DNA from: Candidatus Vecturithrix granuli
Lineage (GTDB): Bacteria > Moduliflexota > Moduliflexia > Moduliflexales > Moduliflexaceae
Reading direction: 5' to 3'
DNA: 62,497 nucleotides
Assembly: GCA_000739535.1 (NCBI GenBank)
Contig: DF820464.1
Coordinates: 933,184-995,680 of the forward strand
Shown: positions 50,568-62,497 of the stretch, in pieces
Layout of the letters: each line of letters starts with the position of its first letter
How positions within the stretch are numbered: the stretch's first letter is position 1
Position numbers and translations under genes: made by a program
Notes under the pieces: model-generated
The model's database searches: none
What the model saw: the letters and a program-made list of their open reading frames with translations, nothing else
Told to the model about the DNA's origin: nothing

Positions 50568-51922
50568 GGCTCTTCCGTAAAGTTTGTGGGAACGATTTTT
50601 GCATACATACTTGACACAAAACAAGGTGACAGAGAGTGTGTTGTCTTGTCAACTATTCTCAAAAAGAATCCTGAAAATATGGCGATACGACCACAGGAAC
50701 AAGGAAGATGATGGATGTTTTACATGATATTTTAGGAATTCCTCAGGTGACTATCGAGCGAGTAGAGCTGCAAGAGACAGAAATTCACCTGTCTGTCAAA
50801 CCATGGGCAGAGAGTGCTATTTGCCCCCTCTGTCACAGAGCAAGCCGGGAACTTCATCAGCATAACTCGGTGCGGGTGATCCGGGATTTGCCCCTGAGCG
50901 GAAAACCTGGCTATCTGCATCTGAGTCGTCGCCGGTTTTGGTGCCCCCAGTGTAGCCTGCCTTTTAACGAGCCGCTCGATTTTGTTGAGCCGTACCGGAA
51001 CTCCACCAGGCGCTATGAGTCGCACATTTATGAGTTAGTTCGGCAAAACAACATCCGTTATGTGGAAGTGTTAGAAGGCCTGAGTTATGAAATTGTGGAA
51101 CGGATCTTTTTGCGTGAAGCCACCCGCCGGATTCCTGCTGAGCCGTTTAAGGGCCTTCGGAAATTGGGGCTTGATGAGATCGCGGAACGGAAGGGACGCA
51201 AGGCCTATGATGTGATTTTCTATAATTTGGAAACCGGGAAGCCGGTGGAAGTGCTTCAAGGACGGACAAAGCAGCAACTGCTTGAGTATCTCAAGGCGCT
51301 TGCGGAGGAGGTGAAAGCGAGCATTGAGGAAGTCTGTATTGATATGTGGCGTCCTTACGCTCAAGTCGTCTTCGAGGTGCTGCCTCACGCTGTCTTAGTG
51401 GCTGATCGCTTTCATGTGATGCGGTCCGTCAATACGGATCTGAAGGACCTGAAACACAGCAGGAAAAAAGATGTGCCTGAGAAGGCCAAAGCTTGTCACT
51501 ATCCGTTGCTCAAGAATCAAGAGGATCTCACAGAGCAGCAGCAAGAGACATTAGATGCCGTTTACGAAGTCGATCCTGGGCTCAAACGAGCCCATCAGCT
51601 CAAAGAAGAATTTCGGACGATCTTTGAGACGATACAAACCGTTGAGAATGCTCGTAAACAGGTGCAGAGATGGATCAGTAACGCGTATAAACACCATCTC
51701 GTTCCAACTGTCATCACGACGATGAAGACATGGTTGAGTGCGATCCTGAACTATTTTCATCATCGTACCACGAATAGCCCGTCAGAAGGGATCAATAACA
51801 AGATCAAACTCGTGAAGCGGCGGGGGGATGGTTTCAGAAATTTTGACAACTTTCGACTGAGAATTTTAACGGCTTTCTGAGGAACATGCAATTTTTGTTC
51901 CCACAACTTTCACGGAAGAGCC
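50568..51922 (+). mobile_element. ISL3-family insertion sequence
   Basis: 1355 bases. Terminal inverted repeats of 26 bases, 23 matching: left GGCTCTTCCGTAAAGTTTGT (50568 on), right end complement GGCTCTTCCGTGAAAGTTGT (to 51922). A single full-length transposase is inside. Flanking octamers AATTTTTA (left) and CTTTTATT (right) are not a duplication, so the copy has no 8-base target repeat and one flank was probably deleted or rearranged after insertion. The right end lies inside a methyltransferase gene. Confidence 0.88.
50708..51880 (+). CDS. ISL3-family transposase
   Basis: 390 residues, complete. N-terminal zinc-finger-like Cys pairs (AICPLCHRAS; FWCPQCSLPF), then the ISL3 DDE region: LGLDEIAERKGRKAYDVIFYN (first Asp), ICIDMW-type EVCIDMWRPYAQVVFEVLPHAVLVADRFHVM (second Asp) and NSPSEGINNKIKLVKRRGDGFRNFDNFRLRIL with the catalytic Glu. 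Sole gene of the IS. ATG 50711 is equally possible. Confidence 0.93.
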   Translation: MMDVLHDILGIPQVTIERVELQETEIHLSVKPWAESAICPLCHRASRELHQHNSVRVIRDLPLSGKPGYLHLSRRRFWCPQCSLPFNEPLDFVEPYRNSTRRYESHIYELVRQNNIRYVEVLEGLSYEIVERIFLREATRRIPAEPFKGLRKLGLDEIAERKGRKAYDVIFYNLETGKPVEVLQGRTKQQLLEYLKALAEEVKASIEEVCIDMWRPYAQVVFEVLPHAVLVADRFHVMRSVNTDLKDLKHSRKKDVPEKAKACHYPLLKNQEDLTEQQQETLDAVYEVDPGLKRAHQLKEEFRTIFETIQTVENARKQVQRWISNAYKHHLVPTVITTMKTWLSAILNYFHHRTTNSPSEGINNKIKLVKRRGDGFRNFDNFRLRILTAF

Positions 51923-52465: not shown

Positions 52466-52576
52466 GGCGAACGATCCGCTTCACAGGCGCACAACAGCGG
52501 GCGCTACAACACCTGATAGAACACCAACCAATTTTCCCGCCCGCTGTTGTGCGTCCGGTGCAAGCGATTGTTGGGC
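52466..52576 (-). other. attC-like integron recombination site A
   Basis: 111 bases bounded by GGCGAAC (R''-like) and GTTGGGC, an exact GTTRRRY. Inner arms: GATCCGCTTCACAGGCGCACAAC... and ...GTTGTGCGTCCGGTGCAAGCG, with CAGCGGGCG / CGCCCGCTG closing the stem, and a central AT-rich loop. Right half closely parallels sites B and C (TTTCCCGCCCGCTG...GCGTCCGG...GTT). It lies 15 bases downstream of the stop of the endonuclease-like gene, as expected for a cassette read on the minus strand. Confidence 0.7.
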
Positions 52577-52591
52577 ATATTTCATCCTTTT

Positions 52592-53680
52592 TCAATGTGA
52601 GATAAGAATCATATCAGCAGTTGTTGTATAGACTTCTCCGTCCCACTCAAAATCAATATTGTAACCAGGAAATTCTGTTATACGATCTAAATATCTGTGA
52701 ATTTCTTGGTCTAATAATGGTTTCGCTCTCTTTAATTTCCAAGAACCAAAAAAGTCGTTTTCGTCAACTAATACCAGAAACAGCCTATTTGACGCATCAA
52801 ACCGTCGTACTCCCTGGTTTTCATAGAGCCAACGGATAAGTGTCTCAGGATTATCTCGTACTGATTGTAAAATTTGCAATCGTGTATGCTTCAGTTGGGT
52901 TATCAACTCTCTTGCAACCTCAGAGGGGTGATCTTCTACTTTTGACCATAAGTCTTCAAGTAAACGAGCTTCAGCCAAATCTTGAGAAAAATAAAGATTC
53001 TGCTTTCGACAAAATTGTTTCAAAAGGGTTAATTCTGGCCGTAAATGATGCTCTTTTCGATATTCTTTGATGAAACCCTCCGGTAAATAAGTCACTTTCA
53101 GATCAAATGGCACGTTCTGGATAAAGAAATCAACCTTCTTGATCAAGCCAACAGCGGGTAAAACGTGAGGATGATCTTTAAAGATGTCTTCAATGATAAT
53201 TGATGTCCAATGATTATACCACGAACAAAGAATGTATGCTTTCATACTCGGATAAAGCCTATTATCAATGTTTTCACATAATTCATCATACGATTTGATC
53301 CTTTTCACATAATTGTCAACAATGGTCTTTTCTAAACTGTTTTGGTGGAGACCGCCCCAATCAAAGCTTGCGACTCGATACAATTCACTGACCAGTTGAG
53401 ATTCACTTGCTCGTCTTACCTCACGTTCTTCTTCATAGATGTTCCGAATGGTTTGCTCAATCTGTTGCTCATGCAAAGGACTCTCATACAAAAATTGAAA
53501 GCTTCTCTGCCCTGATATGTCAGGAATTGTGAGATGATGGTCATGTATAAGCCTGTCCATCAATGTATTTCGAGAAAGTGAACGTAGTTTTAAAAATCGT
53601 CTTCCATCAGGATCTAAACTTAATTCTCGGATGTGATCGTTTTTGAAAGCATGTAGAGCTTCTTGGAAGGTATAGGACAT
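52592..53680 (-). CDS. Putative type II restriction endonuclease (PD-(D/E)XK-like)
   Basis: 362 residues, no membrane or signal sequence. I do not recognise a named family, but residues about 170-205 read EDIFKDHPHVLPAVG, IKKVDFFIQNVPFDLKVTYL: an acidic helix, a strand ending in D, then D-L-K-V, the pattern of a PD-(D/E)XK nuclease core. It starts nine bases after the stop of a DNA methyltransferase gene on the same strand, the standard arrangement of a restriction-modification pair, and ends just before attC-like site A. Lower GC than the chromosomal genes to the left, in keeping with a mobile cassette. Confidence 0.65.
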   Translation of the reverse strand: MSYTFQEALHAFKNDHIRELSLDPDGRRFLKLRSLSRNTLMDRLIHDHHLTIPDISGQRSFQFLYESPLHEQQIEQTIRNIYEEEREVRRASESQLVSELYRVASFDWGGLHQNSLEKTIVDNYVKRIKSYDELCENIDNRLYPSMKAYILCSWYNHWTSIIIEDIFKDHPHVLPAVGLIKKVDFFIQNVPFDLKVTYLPEGFIKEYRKEHHLRPELTLLKQFCRKQNLYFSQDLAEARLLEDLWSKVEDHPSEVARELITQLKHTRLQILQSVRDNPETLIRWLYENQGVRRFDASNRLFLVLVDENDFFGSWKLKRAKPLLDQEIHRYLDRITEFPGYNIDFEWDGEVYTTTADMILISH

Positions 53681-53689
53681 GATTTTACC

Positions 53690-55186
53690 TCAATGTTTAG
53701 GAAATTCGCTTCTCCATCCTGGAATAGATTCGAGGGTGTTATATAGTTTCTCATCACTACTCATATCAGAAATTTTTTGATAGATCAAAATGAAGTCATG
53801 TCTTAATGCGCCTTTTCGATTATCCTGTACAACAGAATGCGCAGAATACTGCATTGGAAAACAACCCCGATAGTGTAATTGAGGCACATTGTGTTGAATG
53901 GTCTTCAGATATTCCCAACTCAAGAGATCTCGTGCATTAAAGATGATTGCTAGGAATCCTCCGACTTTCAGGACATGATACGCATTCTGCATAAAACGCA
54001 ACATATCATCAACATAAGTTTTTTTATTCTTATGGCGTTCCTTTGCATTTGAGACGACAATCTCTTCCTCAAAACACGGGGTATGCTGCAAGATAGTATT
54101 CCACAATTCACTTAACTCTAAATAGGGAATGCGATCACTATGAGGAGGATCAGTAATGATAAGCTGTATTTGACCTTTTTCGATCTGCTCTAATACCGTA
54201 TTACAATTACCAATGACTAATGAAATTGGAGATAGATTGTTGATGACTTCATGAGGATTGTTCGTGATAGGAATATATTTTTCGGGTTCAGGAAGTTCAC
54301 GTAATGCTTTTAAGAGTTTTTTGACCCGCAAGTCAAAACAATTCCAGACATTAATTTCAAAATGACGCTCTGGACGCCAATATCCAATAATCCAACTTCC
54401 AACTTCGATATGTTCATGTATCGTGGTATTCTCTTGTGTTTTATGACGTTGAGAGATCGCAAAGACCATTTTTGACATCTGCCCAATAGATGATGTTAAT
54501 GTCAATAATAATGGCTTTTGAAGGGTTACCGGGCATTTCATGATCGTTTCAAGAAGAAGGTCAATATTTCGTAATGCGCGATCAGTAAAAAGATGATGAA
54601 GTGTCAATTCCTTTGTTGAATTCACTCTGGAATTATTAAAAAATATTGGTTTTCTAATGTGATGGGGAGTATATTGAGAAAATTGTTGTATGAGTGTTCT
54701 ATCATGAGGTGTCGGAATAAGTTCTATTCTTTCCCGCTCTTTTCCATTTTTTGTCCACACCGAAGATAATGTTTCCTTTTCCCAGAGATAATGGGTCGCT
54801 ATTCGTCCATCATATAATTGATAACTTTCATATATTGACGGTTTTATTTCTTGTTCGATATATCGAAAGGCTTCAGAGAACTCTTTGACCAGTGGAAGAT
54901 TCACAAAAAACGTTGCTAAGTCAATAGATACAGGATTAATGTCTATGCCTATAAATCGCCGTTGTAATTCAAGACTTTCCTTTGCAACTAATCCAGACCC
55001 AAGAAATGGATCAAGAACAATATCATGTTTTGAAGAGAGTTTTTGTATCAGGAATGTGAGACATTCAAGAGGTTTCTTCCCCCAGTATTTATGAAAAGCA
55101 GCTAATCCTTTGTATCCAGAAGGAGATAACACCGCCTGGATATTCACTTCGAGATCAGATTTCTTAAAAAGTTCTTGCTGAGACAT
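53690..55186 (-). CDS. DNA methyltransferase of a cassette-borne restriction-modification system
   Basis: 498 residues. SAM-binding motif I near residue 57: DIVLDPFLGSGLVAKESLELQRRFIGIDINP. The catalytic motif comes late (about 340): LIITDPPHSDRIPYLELSELW, that is DPPH instead of DPPY. Motif I before DPP(Y/H) with a long middle domain is the alpha-class order. AFHKYWGKKP at the N-terminus is typical of a group of DNA methylases with DPPHSD. The likely partner is the nuclease-like gene nine bases downstream. Upstream 120 bases separate it from attC-like site B. Confidence 0.85.
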   Translation of the reverse strand: MSQQELFKKSDLEVNIQAVLSPSGYKGLAAFHKYWGKKPLECLTFLIQKLSSKHDIVLDPFLGSGLVAKESLELQRRFIGIDINPVSIDLATFFVNLPLVKEFSEAFRYIEQEIKPSIYESYQLYDGRIATHYLWEKETLSSVWTKNGKERERIELIPTPHDRTLIQQFSQYTPHHIRKPIFFNNSRVNSTKELTLHHLFTDRALRNIDLLLETIMKCPVTLQKPLLLTLTSSIGQMSKMVFAISQRHKTQENTTIHEHIEVGSWIIGYWRPERHFEINVWNCFDLRVKKLLKALRELPEPEKYIPITNNPHEVINNLSPISLVIGNCNTVLEQIEKGQIQLIITDPPHSDRIPYLELSELWNTILQHTPCFEEEIVVSNAKERHKNKKTYVDDMLRFMQNAYHVLKVGGFLAIIFNARDLLSWEYLKTIQHNVPQLHYRGCFPMQYSAHSVVQDNRKGALRHDFILIYQKISDMSSDEKLYNTLESIPGWRSEFPKH

Positions 55187-55306
55187 TGGATATTCCCCAA
55201 TTCCTTGACCGTTCTATACGAATATGTTTTATCATGCATTATTGGGACAAGTTTATATGAATTGGAATATTTGTCAACTTTAAAGGGTCAGCTCGGCATT
55301 GAGAAT

Positions 55307-55391
55307 GCCCAACGCACCGTTTCAGGGGCACAAAAGGGCGGGCGCAACCACCCTTGACATTTGGCAATCAATTTTTCCGCCCGCCCTTTGG
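55307..55391 (-). other. attC-like site B, left part (split by intron and IS)
   Basis: GCCCAAC (an exact RYYYAAC) then GCACCGTTTCAGGGGCACAA, AGGGCGGGCG, loop, CGCCCGCCCTTTGG. The complementary continuation CGTCCCCTGCAAGCAGCTC GTTAGAT is at 59653-59678. Rejoining them gives an attC of about 111 bases, the same size as sites A (111) and C (113), with the TTTnnGCGTCC block aligned among all three. Confidence 0.7.
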
Positions 55392-55392
55392 G

Positions 55393-57162
55393 CAATGTCA
55401 TAAATTTAAGAACGTGTTCCTGTTTTCAGGTATTCGCCGAAGAACTTTTTTTGAATTCTCTGCTGTAAAAACAGGGACGATTTTCTCATATATGCCTCAT
55501 TCGATGAAGACGATGATGTTGAATGGTGCTCACCAAACAGACCTCCAGCCTTGTGGTGTGGAATTCTTCTCCTCATGGTGCTCACCAAACAGACTCCGAC
55601 CTTCATATCATCGGGTTCTTCTCCTGGGGTATTCGTCTTCGCTCACCGTCATTGCCTCTGCCCGGCTCATCAGGACAGCGAATCAAGGGCGATTTACAGC
55701 GCCCGTCTTTTCGTCATCGTATATTTCTGCCGATTTTTGCGGGTTCGAGGAAATTGACGACCTGGGCGAATGGGGATCATGTTCCGTTTCATCTCGCGTT
55801 TCAGATCAGCGTAAAATTCCTGCAAATTCCCCTGGTCCAACAGCAAGGTGACGATGCGATCTTTGAGACGACCAATGGAGAGATTTTTATTCAGTTGATA
55901 CGCATACATGCGCGTGGAATTCTGATTCTCCTGTGCAACCTCATCCTGAAGCTCCCAATGAATCAGTCCCCGAATATTATTGGTCAAGACGGTGGCATAA
56001 AAATCTTGCCGCACTGTCAGTGGCGACGTTCCGGTAAAATTTTCGATCTCAAGAATATTTTTCAAGACATCATAATGGGTTTCACTCCCCCATCGTTTGG
56101 CGTACAATCCTTGAAAATCAGTGTATGGAAAGCGGTCGGCATCCAGAAGGGTGGTCAACAGAATCTCTCGGACGCCATTCTCAAGCGTCAATTGAATGAC
56201 CCGAATGGACAAGACCATCTCTGGATCAATCTCTGGCAGATGCGCTGACAACTTGGGAGGCAGCGGACGATCCGGAGTGTGAAGGGGAATCGAGGTGACC
56301 TGATCGTCCCGGTGGACTGGATGGCCTCCTGGACTTCTTTTAAAAACGTGTCTGATGTGCGGATCACAAACTCTTTGCCCTGGAGGATCATGAGCGCCAT
56401 GAAGTACAAGGCGGGATCCCCCATATCAAACAGCAACAGATCGCCTTGATGCCCTCGCCGCCCGGCCGTCCGCCGATCAAACGCCGCCACCGCCTCAAGG
56501 TGACGAAGGGCTAACTGTCGTTCCTCGCTGGTATATCGGTCAAGCACCGCATGCACACTGATCTCATTTTCCACATCAAACATGACAGAAATCCGTCCCA
56601 TGCTCATGATCACACCATGCTGATTCGTCACCCCTCCAAATTCCTGAAAGATGGCGTCACTCCAAGGTAATTGAACCGTTGACCCATCAATCCCCAACAC
56701 GCGAAAGCCTTTCCACGTGGTAGAGGTATTCTCCGTATAAAACTCCTGCACCAGACATTCATCTAACCGGATAAACGCCTGCTCTGAAAATTTGGGGCGT
56801 GCCTGACAAAATGCGTGTTTGGTGACAGCGCTTGGGCTGCTCTCCCCCTTCAGCACTTTGAGAAACTTGTCTAATTCAATCTGTAAGGTCTTCGTCAGCA
56901 TATTGAGTAAACATCCTATCAGAATGGGAAACATGAGCACTCGTTTCCGAGTAAAATATCTCGGGTCTTTCCGACAGTCTTCCTTCAATTGTTCAGAGAA
57001 TAAGACCGTTTTGAGGGACTCAATGATCTCTCATCCAGTTGTTTTTCATCTTGACTCCTTTCGGCTCTGGGTGATCTGTGAACTTTTGATATTGAGAAAT
57101 ACTTCAATATTGCCCATGTCTTGAAATGTTTCAAGTCATTTTCCCTTAAATTTATGACATTG
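55393..57162 (-). mobile_element. IS4-like insertion sequence with perfect TIRs and 10-bp target duplication
   Basis: 1770 bases. The left end CAATGTCATAAATTTAAG (55393-55410) and the right end CTTAAATTTATGACATTG (57145-57162) are perfect 18-base inverted repeats. GCCCTTTGGG flanks it on both sides (55383-55392 and 57163-57172), a clean 10-base target duplication. The transposase frame is broken by one base. About 300 non-coding bases lie between the transposase stop and the left end and contain a direct repeat of GGTGCTCACCAAACAGAC (about 55526 and 55580). Inserted exactly where the group II intron meets the attC remnant. Confidence 0.88.
55694..56988 (-). pseudogene. IS4-family transposase, frameshifted
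   Basis: The first frame (56988 down to 56188) carries the N-terminal region and the DDE residues FRVLGIDGSTVQLPWSDA (Asp) and LLLFDMGDPALY (Asp). The second (56251 to 55694) carries FQGLYAKRWGSETHYDVLKN, the Y-(2)-R-(3)-E-(6)-K signature with the catalytic Glu. Joining needs one extra base in the run CCTCCCAAG near 56256: IVRCLP continues into KLSAHLPEIDPEMVLSIRVIQL. Recent single-base loss, since all else is intact; the element probably cannot move by itself. Confidence 0.85.
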
Positions 57163-57232
57163 GCCCTTTGGGTAGGGTAGCAAGCTAGCGAGTTACTTAT
57201 ATTTATAAGCACTTTTCCAACAAGCCCCCTCC

Positions 57233-57266
57233 GAACCGGACGTGCAAGTTTCCAAGCATCCGGCTC
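57233..57266 (-). ncRNA. Group II intron domain V
   Basis: 34 nucleotides: GAGCCGGATGC / GCACGTCCGGTTC stem with the TGGAAACT-type tetraloop region and a two-base bulge. It is the catalytic heart of the ribozyme and fixes intron orientation. Confidence 0.9.
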
Positions 57267-57276
57267 TCCAGTGAGA

Positions 57277-59101
57277 TTACGTAAGTTTCTCTCCGTCATA
57301 TGTGCCAGTATGTATCTTTTTATGACACTCATCACATACAAAGAGTGTTTTCCGTCTCATGGCAATCATTGTTTCGACCCATTTAGGCGGTTCTCCCTTG
57401 CCTCTGTATTTCTTTTTGAGGTCGTTGAGCTGCCTGATGTGATGTCCGACGATTCGTACCCCTTCTGCCTTACAGAGTTCACACCGTTCTCCCAACATTC
57501 TTGTGAGCAGTTCATTTCGTGTCCATTTGGCACGAGGTAGTTCATCGTGTATTTCAACGGTATTTTTATAGTGAATTGGCTTCTTTCCGAATATTGCTCT
57601 CAACGGTTCTTTTCCATCTCTTGGGATTACTATCGTGATGACTTTTCGACCATCCGTTGTGTATTGCGTATATTTCCGGAGTATCTGGGTTGCTCCTATT
57701 TTGTGCTTCCTTGCTAAGGTCTTTACCAGTGATGTTTTAAAGAGGTCTCGTAGTTTGTACATCTCTTTGCTCACATTCAGGGCTAATGTATAATAATTTA
57801 TTAACCCTTGTAACTGAGTCTCATAGTGACCGATGATGTCGTAGTCACTATGATTTATTAACTCTGTCCGGTGCATCACTCTTTTATCCTTAGTGACTTT
57901 TTCTTTCCACTTTCGAGTGACATCTCTGGGGGCGAAGAATTTAATTGTACCCTTCATCGTTCTTCTGCGTGTTCTTAGCCCTTCAACGACTACGTTTGCT
58001 TTCTTTACATCGTCTTTGACGACCGTGATTTCATAATTGAGAAAACGGGCTCTTCCATCAGAAGCATGGGTTATGAGTGTCTTTAGTTCTGACAATTCTA
58101 ACTTTAGCTCCTTTTTCAGAAAGACTTTTATTTCCTCGTTTATCTCTTCGGCGTCATGTTTTGTTCCAAGTACTCCAAACAATGTATCGTCGGCGTACCG
58201 TATATACTTCACGCTCTTATAGTTGTCATCTTCGTAACATTGGGAGGGGAGTTTGCTATAACACCTTATATAATTCTTTGGCTTTAACAACGTCTCCTTT
58301 CTTTCTCCAATATGTTGCTTGAACTCGCAGTCTCTGGTTTTCTCGGTTCACTTCTCGTTGCTTGCCTCTTGTGTATTTCTGAGTTATCGTTTCTTCCACG
58401 TATGTATCTAACTCATTCAGGACAATGTTGGCCAATAGTGGACTGACTATTCCTCCCTGTGGCGTCCCCGAATACGTGTGATGATATTTCCAGTCTTCCA
58501 GGTATCCGGCTTTCAACATGTCCCGTAGAAGCATGAGAAAAGTTTCATCTTTGATGTGTCTTCTCAGAATTCCAATTGTCACTTCATGGTCAATGTTATC
58601 GAAGCATCCTTTAATGTCTCCTTCTATAAACCAGTTTACTCCTTTCCAGGTTCGTTTGATTTCCCATAATGCGGTATGACATCCCAACGTGGGTCTGAAA
58701 CCATGGGAACATGTCTTGAATTGCAGCTCGTAGTATGCATTCAGAAGCAATCGAATCACTTCTTGAAGGAGTTTATCTTCCCATCCCGGCATACCTACCG
58801 GACGCTTGCTTCTTCCCTCTCTTTTTAAGATGTAGGGACGTCTTGTCGGTTTCCACTGATATTCTCTCCTTTTGAGCTGATCCAGAATGTGCCCGATTCT
58901 CTCCAATGACATCCCATCTGCCGTATCTTCAGGGGCTGTTCCGGGTGTAAGCGCGCCTTTATTTGCATAGAGGTTCGCGTATGCCACAAGGTAAAGTTCC
59001 TGATTTGTGGCAAGGTTGTAATACACCCTTTTGAGTTCGGGTCCTGCCTCTCCTCTCTTTCTTACCACGTCTAAATACTTTTGAGCTTCAATCAGTAGCA
59101 T
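57277..59101 (-). pseudogene. Group II intron reverse transcriptase/maturase with HNH domain, frameshifted
   Basis: First frame (59101 to 58256, 281 codons): RT domains 0-4, with RRPYILKREGRSKRPVGMP, KTCSHGFRPTLGCHTALWEI, GDIKGCFDNIDH and YSGTPQGGIVSPLLANIVL. Second frame (from about 58290 to 57277): RT domain 5 VKYIRYADDTLFGV, maturase domain X (HYETQLQGLINYYTLALN) and an HNH nuclease CELCKAEG..., VGHHI, CDECHKKIH. They should be one protein of about 600 residues; the joint near 58260-58266 (AAGGTGTTATAGC) needs removal of a single base to read KVYSKLPSQ. The YADD catalytic motif is intact. Confidence 0.88.
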
Positions 59102-59652
59102 TCCGACTTACCTCACTCAGGGTATTTAGCGTTTTCTCACCTGTTCCCCTTCCCCGTGTAACCGGCTTTCCCGGCCGCTGAGTACTATGGGAACTCCGTC
59201 ACCTTGCGGGTCGCCCCGTGTAGGTCATCCCGTTTTCCGCACACAGTAAACGTCCTAGACCGTCTGAGGTCTTCCATTCATATCCTTGCCTCTCCTTCGG
59301 AGAATATCTCTGGCAGCTATCCAGTTACTCACTTGACCCGTTTGAGCAACCTCTTCGGGATGTTGGAACGCATGACATCCTTACTTTCCAGAGCATCGGT
59401 ATTCAATAGGCTTTCCGATGGGGCTTGCATTGTACTATTGGATATTGGAATTCAACCAATCCAGGTTTGACCATCACGATCAGTTCTTGCCCTGTCGTCT
59501 TGCCTACGCCTATTTCGGCTCAACGGGCTTTCTCAGGATGCTGTGTTCACCGTTGGGTTTCCCCATTGGCTACCCTGAGTGAACTCAAGGGGTTCTGATA
59601 GCTTCCCTTGACCCTCTGTGAGGGTAATTTACTCTGCCGTTAAACGGCGCAC

Positions 59653-59678
59653 CGTCCCCTGCAAGCAGCTCGTTAGAT
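59653..59678 (-). other. attC-like site B, right part
   Basis: CGTCCCCTGCAAGCAGCTC then GTTAGAT, an exact GTTRRRY. Complementary to the 5' arm at 55307. It lies 60 bases downstream of the TPR gene stop (59738), as expected for the attC of that cassette. Confidence 0.65.
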
Positions 59679-59737
59679 CCATTTCTTTCTCATATTATGA
59701 GATATTTGAGTCATATTTATATTTTCTGATGTTCCGT

Positions 59738-60637
59738 TCAATATTTCTTAAACCTCTCTATGAGGTGTACAGCCTCCTTTTCTAAGCGTTTTAATCCGAA
59801 CTCTTCAAATGTCTTTTTCGCTTCTGTGATCATATTCATCGCGTGTTCGTGATCGTTAGATTCATCATAAAGCATCTGAGCCTCTACAAGTTTCGCTTCG
59901 GTGGCGTGGTGGGGTTGTTGTTGGCGCGTGAAGATAGTCTTGGCGGCGGCGAGGCAGTTGTGGGTGGCGGGGAAATCGCGCAGGGCGAGGTGGCTTTTGG
60001 CTTCGGAGAGGATGGCTTCGCCGCAACGATAATATTCGATCTCTGTAAAGATTTTCCGGGCGGCGGAGGCGGCTTCGAGCGCGGCGTCCGGCTGATTTTG
60101 CGCGAGGCGGAGCGCGGCGAGGGTCAAGTCCGCTTCGCCGAGGCGGAAAGAGCGCATCTGCTGAAAGAGGGCAATCGCTTCGTTGAGGCTGATTTCCGCT
60201 TTGTCAAGTTCGCCTTGCGCCAAATAAGCCTGCGCGTAGGCGTCTTTGAGCATGGCAATCGCCTCTAGCCTGATGTGTTTTTTGAAATATGCATCTATGA
60301 TGTATAGTCTTTCTAAAGCTTTTTCTAGCTCATTAAAAGCAAGATAAAGCCCTACCGAATTGAGTAGATGAATAGGGGTGTCACCAACAAACACATCTCT
60401 TTTTATCCCATCCTCTAACTCTTTTTCTAAAATAATATAAGCTTCCTTATGATGTTCAATCCCTATGAAGATTTGACTATAGCGCATGGTTAAAAGAATT
60501 GAAATATGCTTTGAATCAAGTGTTTTATTATCCAATATGGCATGATTGATAAGAGAATTCGCCTCTACAATATCTCCTAACGCCCGGCGTAACCGGCGCA
60601 AAAAGGCGGCGGTCACCGAACCCCAAACAAACAACAA
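59738..60637 (-). CDS. TPR-repeat protein fragment or cassette gene reading out of attC
   Basis: A helical repeat protein: LKDAYAQAYLAQGELDKAEISLNEAIALFQQM, LAALRLAQNQPDAALEAASAARKIF and LSEAKSHLALRDFPATHNCLAAAKTIF are tetratricopeptide-like pairs; tail ends KTFEEFGLKRLEKEAVHLIERFKKY. Similar tails occur in LuxR/MalT- or cyclase-linked TPR regions, so it may be a fragment of a larger signalling protein. Oddity: the first 21 codons (MLFVWGSVTAAFLRRLRRALG) are attC-like site C itself, and there is no Met between the attC edge and residue 50. Either translation starts in the attC stem or at Met about 50, or the gene is 5'-truncated. The central part is GC-richer than its edges. Confidence 0.55.
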   Translation of the reverse strand: MLFVWGSVTAAFLRRLRRALGDIVEANSLINHAILDNKTLDSKHISILLTMRYSQIFIGIEHHKEAYIILEKELEDGIKRDVFVGDTPIHLLNSVGLYLAFNELEKALERLYIIDAYFKKHIRLEAIAMLKDAYAQAYLAQGELDKAEISLNEAIALFQQMRSFRLGEADLTLAALRLAQNQPDAALEAASAARKIFTEIEYYRCGEAILSEAKSHLALRDFPATHNCLAAAKTIFTRQQQPHHATEAKLVEAQMLYDESNDHEHAMNMITEAKKTFEEFGLKRLEKEAVHLIERFKKY

Positions 60638-60687
60638 CCCAATTTTCCCCGCCGCCTTTTTGCGTCCGGTTCACGCCATCGTTAGGG
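60575..60687 (-). other. attC-like integron recombination site C
   Basis: 113 bases, TCCTAAC to GTTAGGG (one position off the RYYYAAC/GTTRRRY consensus at each end). CGCCCGGCGTAACCGGCGCAA and TTGCGTCCGGTTCACGCCATC arms with AAAAGGCGGCGG / CCGCCGCCTTTTT closing the hairpin around an AT-rich loop. The most complete of the sites. The dprA-like stop (60671) falls inside it, so the last codons (LQPLTMA) are attC-derived. Confidence 0.75.
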
Positions 60688-61684
60688 GCTGTAAGGTTCT
60701 ATCATGAAATAGCTCTGTCTGTAAAAGTAGTTCATTATGGTTCTCAACTATCGGAGTAGGGTTTATTCGCGAAATCTGTTTGATAATTGTATTAGCTCCA
60801 TTAATTGGATCGATTTTTATTCCTCCATATCTGATCAAATCGTAATTACCTTTGGGAGAATTTTTAAAGTATGAGGGATCCATAACAAATAAAGGGAGCT
60901 TCATTTCAATGGCTGTTTTACCAGCAGCAAAAGTTCCACTCATTTTCCCAGTATCATCTTTCTCTAATCCTGCTTCAATCACTACAATTCCTTTTGATAA
61001 AGCACAAACCAATTTGTTCCTAGCCATTGCGTTCCTGGCTATCCACTTGGTATTAGGTTCAAATTGTGAGACGATAAGCATATTTTGATCCCAGGCATAG
61101 TTTTTAAAATCATTCTTCTTCCGAAATTCTTTAATTCCATAACTCAGGACTATCGTGGTAGTACCCTCAGCTTGTAGCGCTCCAATGTGAGCATTTGAGT
61201 CTACGCCTTTAGCATATCCAGAAATAACGTTTAGTCCTGATTTAGCTATCTCTGAGGCGATCTGTTGAGCAAATTGTTCTCCTTCTTCTGAAACATTTCT
61301 TGAACCAACAATCGCTATCCCATCACTACAGAAAAGAGGGAGGTATCCTTTACAGAATAAAACAGGTGAGATATTATATCTTTCTGAATACCACAAAAAT
61401 TTTAAGGGATAATATGGATGCCCAGGATAAAGAATTTCTATGCCTTCAGCCCGCAACTCTTCATATTCTTGATATATTCTCTCTCTATCATCAAACTGAA
61501 TTTTATCTACAAGAATCTTTGCTAACTCTGGATAGTTTGTGGTGAGTTCACGTTTATTCATCGGAATGTCATTAGGAGTAAGATTATTCCGTTCAAATAT
61601 TTTGGTAATATTGATAAGACTCTTAGGACCAATTCCTCGAGTCTCAAAAAGCCTAAACCAAAAATAGGCTGAATCCATTCTCAT
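60671..61684 (-). CDS. DprA/Smf-like protein (SLOG/Rossmann-type nucleotide- or ssDNA-binding)
   Basis: 337 residues. The SMF core is present: DGIAIVGSRNVSEEGEQFAQQIASEIAKSGLNVISGYAKGVDSNAHIGAL (GSR and GxAxGVD motifs), then QFEPNTKWIARNAMARNKLVCALSKGIVVIEAG and GTFAAGKTAIEMKLPLFVMD. Cellular DprA loads RecA onto transforming DNA; mobile SMF/SLOG proteins have been proposed to sense or bind nucleotides in defence systems. The start overlaps the stop of a phosphoribosyltransferase gene by four bases (ATGA), so the two are co-translated. The pair occupies one cassette between attC-like sites D and C. Confidence 0.85.
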   Translation of the reverse strand: MRMDSAYFWFRLFETRGIGPKSLINITKIFERNNLTPNDIPMNKRELTTNYPELAKILVDKIQFDDRERIYQEYEELRAEGIEILYPGHPYYPLKFLWYSERYNISPVLFCKGYLPLFCSDGIAIVGSRNVSEEGEQFAQQIASEIAKSGLNVISGYAKGVDSNAHIGALQAEGTTTIVLSYGIKEFRKKNDFKNYAWDQNMLIVSQFEPNTKWIARNAMARNKLVCALSKGIVVIEAGLEKDDTGKMSGTFAAGKTAIEMKLPLFVMDPSYFKNSPKGNYDLIRYGGIKIDPINGANTIIKQISRINPTPIVENHNELLLQTELFHDRTLQPLTMA

Positions 61685-62262
61685 CGCTTAGTCCTCGTTT
61701 TAGTTAACGTTACTACAAATACTCTTGCTACTTTACCCTCCTTGTATAAGGCGTCAGTAGCAGCCATTAAAGTTTCTCCTGAGCGATATAGATCATCAAA
61801 AAGAAGAACATATTTTTCTTTGAAACGTTGATCTTTGACATGAAATGCTCCTTCAAGCTGTTCTCTCCTACTCTCATGATCCTCAATGCCTTTCAAAGGG
61901 ATCGTTTGTTTTTGCTTTATCAAATAATCTAAAGGAACTGGAAGACTAATAATTCGACCTATTTCAAGAGCAATTTCTAAAACCGGTTGAAAGGGACGTT
62001 CTAAATTTGAAGGAGGAATGGGTATAATTGCTCCAAGAAACTTATATACCAACAGACTCTTAATGAATTCTGCTGCTGTTTCGGCGATTACAGCGATTTT
62101 CTTTTTGTCATAACGATATTTTAGCTGATATAGCACTTCTCCTATCTCTGTTCGAACTGTATCAAAACCACCGTCTGGTCGAGGTGAACTTGAAACAGTG
62201 TGGATATCTAAAGCCCATCCTGCTCTCCAATTTCCTTTCAAGGGTATTTTTCGTAGTGTCAT
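61681..62262 (-). CDS. ComF-like phosphoribosyltransferase
   Basis: 193 residues. The PRPP-binding loop is clear: KYVLLFDDLYRSGETLMAATDALYKEG (DD.xxSGxT), preceded by YQLKYRYDKK (the YKY element of ComF) and AIIPIPPSNLERPFQPVLEIA. No N-terminal zinc finger, unlike ComF. ComF and DprA both belong to competence, but here they are fused into one mobile cassette with overlapping genes, a combination also seen in predicted nucleotide-based defence islands. ATG 62262 has no strong ribosome binding site. Confidence 0.85.
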   Translation of the reverse strand: MTLRKIPLKGNWRAGWALDIHTVSSSPRPDGGFDTVRTEIGEVLYQLKYRYDKKKIAVIAETAAEFIKSLLVYKFLGAIIPIPPSNLERPFQPVLEIALEIGRIISLPVPLDYLIKQKQTIPLKGIEDHESRREQLEGAFHVKDQRFKEKYVLLFDDLYRSGETLMAATDALYKEGKVARVFVVTLTKTRTKR

Positions 62263-62426
62263 CTTAGATTTTTTACGTCACTTCTTCTAAATCAATCGAT
62301 AGATTAACTTACCAAATCTCCAAGAGTCCCTCTTCTCATCATCGTTATTCAATAAAATATTGGAAGAATTTTGGCAAGCATTTTATGAGAAATTTTAGCA
62401 TCAACTTGTCAAAAACTGAGGAAAGC

Positions 62427-62497
62427 CCCTAACGTCCTGTTTAAGCTGTTTCGTTTGGCTCTTTTTCGTTACCTTATGATTTTTTATACCGAACGAA
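62427..62497 (-). other. Possible attC-like site D (incomplete at window edge)
   Basis: CCCTAACGTCCTGTTTAAGCTGTTTCGTTTGG resembles the R''-L'' side of sites A-C (TAACG followed by a degenerate arm). The partner arm would lie beyond 62497. It would be the upstream boundary of the dprA/phosphoribosyltransferase cassette. Confidence 0.4.

Follow-up and report, generated by a model that had tools for sequence, protein, structure and literature searches.

Evidence for a chromosomal integron cassette array in Candidatus Vecturithrix granuli, and for group II introns lodged in its attC sites

Does the right-hand end of contig DF820464.1 (C20) of Candidatus Vecturithrix granuli carry part of an integron and, if so, what has befallen it? 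We addressed this question in the final 62,497 bases of the contig (C20:933184-995680), hereafter the window, at whose last base C20 also stops. A preliminary description of this DNA, made from its letters alone, had noticed hairpin-forming sites between minus-strand genes and had read them as attC recombination sites of a chromosomal integron. The genome amounts to 8.38 Mb in 21 contigs (listed completeness 93.8%, contamination 10.75%), and its lineage is poorly sampled, with one other genome of the same family and two of the same order among the 40 genomes compared. We conclude that the region very probably belongs to a chromosomal integron and its array of cassettes, later invaded by a group II intron and by insertion sequences (IS) of the IS4 and ISL3 families. 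The array is a genuine integron fragment of a known kind; its most unusual part is the relation between intron and attC, apparently a new variant.

The candidate recombination sites in the window are the following.

52466-52577, minus strand: attC site 1 (model R1, 106.9 bits, E 1.4e-33)
55307-55392, minus strand: attC site 2, distal hairpin and R' end; a half site (model R1 positions 29-86, 43.8 bits)
59653-59679, minus strand: attC site 2, R''/L'' arm, which is the 5' exon of an intron and ends in GCTTGCAGGGGACG (from sequence and family alignment)
60575-60688, minus strand: attC site 3 (model R1, 105.5 bits, E 4.4e-33)
62427-62497, minus strand: site 4, 3' part (R' end) of an attC of an AT-rich second subfamily, cut by the contig end (94% match to C14)

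A genome search with site 1 returned 31 similar places, and a covariance model (R1) was trained on an alignment of 21 complete attC-like sequences that begin at R'' (RYYYAAC) and end at R' (GTTRRRY), all window sites being left out. The consensus fold of this alignment holds 28 base pairs, 21 of which show compensatory changes, and the L'' arm keeps unpaired bases: the G of TTGCA without exception and the A that follows GG almost without exception. Since R1 was built without the window sites and nevertheless matches them (about 106 bits and E ~1e-33 for both intact ones), we assign them to the same attC family. The opposite strands of sites 1 and 3 reach only 34-35 bits, and the best match in the rest of the window, the sites and their opposite strands aside, lies at about 17 bits. 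The features expected of attC are present, with R''/R' core sites, an imperfect hairpin, extrahelical bases and repetition between genes. Similarly, the genes share one orientation with an attC at the 3' end of each: the stop of a dprA-like gene (60671) falls within site 3, and that of a gene for a 362-aa protein lies 14 nt before site 1. Each unit of the array consists of a single gene or a pair of genes with an attC behind, whose bottom strand, to judge by the conserved structure, folds into a hairpin with extrahelical L'' bases. The preliminary description was right about the cassette architecture, about minus-strand genes with sites at their stop codons and about joining 55307-55391 to 59653-59678 as a single split site; of the "common TTTnnGCGTCC block" that it reported, a loose likeness is left, the exact pattern occurring in the window at site 3 only.

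The family extends throughout the genome. With model R1 we found at least 75 attC sites of 40 bits or more, a lower bound because an AT-rich second attC subfamily escapes the model. Forty-nine of these sites form seven arrays of 3-11 sites (C13, 5; C14, 11; C15, 11; C18, 6; C20, 3; C21, 10; C8, 3), every one of them confined to one strand, and about 20 copies stand alone. For the 46 sites with enough flanking sequence, the longest same-strand reading frame ending near R'' had a median of 269 codons, versus 62.5 for the longest opposite-strand frame running into R'. Three full-length integron integrases exceed the TIGR02249 cut-off, a tandem pair on C13 and one on C3, and broken ones lie on C18 and C14. 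The C3 integrase can be aligned from end to end to PDB entry 2a3v, an integron integrase (317 bits), integron-specific patch included, and the arrays of C3, C13 and C18 show the classical divergent layout, pointing away from the integrase. Patch-bearing integrases do exist in the genome, on other contigs; the integrase that the preliminary description expected beyond the right edge of the window would lie past the contig end. Beside integrases of other lineages, R1 detected nine weak attC-like sites, all nine on the minus strand and on the 5' side of the integrase, which is where cassettes belong.

Two side observations concern integrase genes. In the tandem pair on C13 (L002/L003, C13:256343-258505), GLRMMEC and CHAFRHSFA of the first integrase are replaced by GLQVLEC and CRSLRHSFA in the second, which may be inactive. 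A divergent 303-aa integrase-like protein by the C21 array (L010:1318-2229, C21:1034426-1035337) apparently lacks the patch and has an altered HxxR; it may represent a decayed integrase.

At the right end of the window, model R1 gives no match at site 4 (62427-62497). Window positions 62417-62497 match C14:373760-373840 at 94% over 81 nt, and the complete copy on C14 reads GTCTAAC...CCTGTTTGAAGCTG...CAGCTTAAACAGG...GTTCGGC, an AT-rich imperfect palindrome with an extrahelical G. Because this complete copy is an attC, we regard site 4 as a truncated attC of the second subfamily, which is seen at L106:3724-3831 (C14) and window 62427-62497. The fourth site that had been placed at 62427 is therefore real, of a second subfamily and incomplete. 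Since the window ends inside it, at least one further cassette lay to the right, in agreement with the rightward extension of the array that had been proposed. Site 4 was also considered as an attI, a candidate that we dropped after the complete attC copy was found on C14, and no similarity was found between site 4 and the regions flanking other integrases. A search for a join between C20 and either C3 or C15 found no end sequence in common.

Site 2 is interrupted by two elements, as follows.

57172-59652, minus strand: group II intron, 2481 nt, inside attC site 2 and sense to the cassettes (Rfam RF00029, 63.4 bits; boundaries GTGCGCC...CCCTAC)
58256-59101, minus strand: intron-encoded protein, N-terminal reverse transcriptase (RT) part (best PDB match LtrA, 5g2x, 250 bits)
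57277-58290, minus strand: intron-encoded protein, C-terminal part (maturase X and HNH), in a different frame (Pfam Intron_maturas2, AI2M-like_HNH)
55393-57162, minus strand: IS4-family element, transposase in two frames (IS4 transposase NF033592, terminal inverted repeats, 10-bp duplication GCCCTTTGGG)

The intron is not a singular case. Of seven group II introns detected across the genome, six sit in attC, in the top strand and sense to the cassettes. Full domain V matches number five, four of which adjoin attC, and two further intron tails also adjoin attC. The introns or tails at this one attC place lie at window 57172-59652, C8:183404, C8:180778, C17:551325, C13:261468 and C16:140313, and in all six the attC resumes at model R1 positions 25-28. 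One of the introns carries a palindromic insert of about 100 bp between domain V and its 3' end (C8:180676-180780). The protein of the window intron is closest to LtrA (250 bits, versus 90 for the IIC protein 6ar1 and at most 107 for the others listed among PDB chains), as expected of an LtrA-like (ML/IIA) intron. Two relatives of it on plasmids (Serratia and Salmonella) are not beside annotated integron genes, and an Rfam search of 18 integrase loci of other lineages gave a single group II intron family match (L071:18792).

What, then, could place these introns so precisely? The known 5' exons are GCTTGCAGGGGACG in the window and GTTTGCAGGCGACT on C17. Hairpin loops resembling exon-binding site 1 (EBS1) occur in the aligned introns and read CGTTCC in the window, CGTCGC on C17 and CGTCCG on C8. 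Against its own L'' arm, each loop pairs at 6/6 (window, GGGACG), 5/6 (C17, GCGACT) and 6/6 (C8, CGGACG) positions; in the family as a whole, GGGACG, GCGACC and CGGACG are the three most frequent L'' variants. Within the first 560 nt of the window intron, CGTTCC is the sole 6-mer able to pair with GGGACG at every position, and there is one copy of TGCAAG, which is complementary to the TTGCA region. Covariation between loop and L'' across the three compared introns is suggestive, and hints that the introns may home to the L'' arm by base pairing. The intron of site 2 would have entered the top strand, most likely by reverse splicing via EBS1/EBS2-like pairing to L'' (TTGCA, GGGACG). As the 10-bp duplication GCCCTTTGGG of the IS4-family element spans the intron-attC junction at the 3' end of the intron, this element arrived after the intron. 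An attC interrupted in this way would no longer recombine as DNA, possibly freezing the neighbouring cassettes.

The left end of the array is marked by another element and by a gene that it divides.

50568-51922, plus strand: ISL3-family element (DDE_Tnp_ISL3, 2e-68), whose left end recurs as the final 67 nt of C8
51923-52328, minus strand: cassette 4, N6/N4 methyltransferase cut in two by ISL3, N-terminal half (PF01555, 3.2e-17)

The C-terminal half of this methyltransferase is found at the right end of C8 (C8:184294-185026), next to the 67 nt of ISL3, and an 8-bp duplication, AATAAAAG, flanks ISL3 on the cassette 4 half and on the C8 half. Beyond ISL3, C8 carries three more attC sites. The junction itself lies at window 50567 and C8:185027-185093. 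Since the split methyltransferase and AATAAAAG are shared with C8, and the left flank of ISL3 in the window is without this duplication, C20 and C8 most likely once formed one array, and the first 50.6 kb of the window would have been joined to it secondarily, either by rearrangement or by an assembly error at a repeat. An ISL3 element would accordingly have split a methyltransferase cassette. The preliminary description thus stands as to a genuine array; it had overlooked the leftward continuation onto another contig, the multiple arrays and the intron and IS at site 2.

Between the sites, the array carries the following genes.

61681-62262, minus strand: cassette 1, gene 1, ShosT/PsyrT-like phosphoribosyltransferase, 193 aa (PADLOC PsyrT 2.5e-14, ShosT 1.2e-7)
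60671-61684, minus strand: cassette 1, gene 2, ShosA/PsyrA-like DprA-family antitoxin, 337 aa (PADLOC PsyrA 3.6e-49, ShosA 7.1e-35)
59738-60574, minus strand: cassette 2, TPR-domain reading frame (open reading frame 59738-60637; TPR_MalT 8.8e-6, below the curated cut-off)
53690-55186, minus strand: cassette 3, gene 1, N6/N4 DNA methyltransferase, 498 aa (PF01555 1.3e-19; PADLOC MTase_II 8.8e-38)
52592-53680, minus strand: cassette 3, gene 2, 362-aa protein of no recognised family (restriction partner by position only)

The DprA-like and phosphoribosyltransferase genes are adjacent, as in ShosTA/PsyrTA systems, and anti-phage activity was reported for a DprA-phosphoribosyltransferase pair (PMC9122126). 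Given this toxin-antitoxin or abortive-infection pair and the methyltransferase genes, the array probably serves as a store of anti-phage genes. The 362-aa protein found no match in Pfam, NCBIfam, PADLOC or the plasmid search. In cassette 2 the TPR frame runs open through the attC, with no obvious start beyond, and the gene is perhaps 5' truncated or fused.

How well does the integron reading fare against other explanations of the same DNA? The sites might be transcription terminators, or a dispersed hairpin repeat (akin to repetitive extragenic palindromes or miniature inverted-repeat transposable elements) that follows genes by chance. They do follow stop codons, they are GC-rich hairpins and about 20 of them stand alone; set against this are the R''/R' core sites, the extrahelical bases conserved in one arm only, the strand asymmetry of the model (107 versus 34 bits), the same-strand arrays by integrases on C3, C13 and C18 and the model matches beside integrases of other lineages, which together leave such an explanation hardly credible. 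A different matter is whether the array is a true CALIN, that is, an attC cluster without an integrase in cis, mobilised in trans only. C20 has no integrase near the array and intact ones reside on C3 and C13, but the contig ends inside an attC with the upstream part missing, and contig splitting inflates CALIN counts (PMC9024848); we hold this to be a serious possibility that falls somewhat short of probable. On the reading preferred here, the integrases elsewhere in the genome, or one beyond the contig edge, would recombine its sites in trans or in cis. As regards gene content, the DprA and ComF families have the same folds as the cassette 1 pair, which could be ordinary competence genes (comF and dprA) and no defence system. 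The 193-aa protein, however, scores 32 bits with comF, below the cut-off of 233.55, the 337-aa protein is likewise under the dprA cut-off, a dprA above cut-off sits on C7, and the PADLOC ShosA/PsyrA and ShosT/PsyrT models match; a competence role is therefore unlikely, and a defence pair is preferred.

The introns, for their part, might belong to the known group IIC-attC class, which recognises the attC hairpin, and they share with it a location within attC sites. Those introns are inserted in the bottom strand of attC at TTGT/T, in opposite orientation to the cassettes (PMC7923331), and IIC proteins are without an endonuclease domain (PMC4424553). The introns described here occupy the top strand on the 3' side of the L'' arm, sense to the cassettes, the window copy at GGGACG/CC, and the encoded protein is LtrA-like by a wide difference in score and bears an HNH domain. 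Membership in the IIC-attC class is accordingly very unlikely. We lean instead towards a lineage of LtrA-like introns that has adapted EBS1/EBS2 to the attC L'' arm and has spread in the top strand and in cassette sense through arrays, its loops tracking the attC variants. This would be a third way of living on integrons, beside bottom-strand IIC-attC introns and scattered IIB introns.

Several observations weigh against the overall picture. No integrase or attI adjoins the window array in the assembly, the contig being cut at the window edge, and what we report for the attC sites is a conserved structure, from which their use by an integrase is predicted. The listed contamination and an ISL3 junction without the matching duplication make the linkage, and even the origin from a single organism, uncertain. 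With respect to the introns, mismatched loop-site pairs still form 3 to 5 of 6 base pairs, zero to three below the matched ones, which is why the covariation is not decisive. The C8 intron (183404) is without the 5' half of its attC and its target was deduced from the opposite arm. Finally, the intron protein is frameshifted, and the window copy could produce it by itself only through a bypass of the frameshift.

The locus widens the known range of integron-rich genomes to a poorly sampled lineage, with defence genes among the cassettes, and illustrates how mobile elements break up cassette arrays. If the proposed homing is true, it would provide an attC-directed group II intron that uses ordinary base-paired homing, a natural case in which guide loops co-vary with a repeated recombination site, and perhaps a means of freezing cassettes.

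Compared with known systems, the array resembles sedentary chromosomal integrons and CALINs (IntegronFinder classes) in its attC arrays, its cassettes on one strand, the patch-bearing integrases of the genome and its defence cassettes, and defence genes in chromosomal integrons of Vibrio have already been described (Darracq 2025; Getz 2025; both as cited by PMC12444791). It differs in that the genome has multiple arrays, no fewer than 75 sites belonging to one family and several degraded integrases, in that its lineage is poorly sampled and in that no integrase is seen in cis. ShosTA/PsyrTA systems likewise place a DprA-like antitoxin beside a phosphoribosyltransferase, whereas here the latter is a stand-alone protein of 193 aa, weakly matched and located in an integron cassette. 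With group IIC-attC introns (S.ma.I2 type) the introns have in common that they are mobile group II introns in attC, and they differ in strand, orientation, position by the L'' arm and an LtrA-like protein with HNH (PMC7923331). Group IIB introns in integrons (UHB.I2, H.ha.F1/F2) are also non-IIC introns within cassette arrays; here, in contrast, several introns occupy one attC place and their loops match that place. Finally, the RT protein, the HNH domain and a putatively base-paired target recall LtrA and Ll.LtrB-type introns, yet the target in this case is a repeated recombination site.
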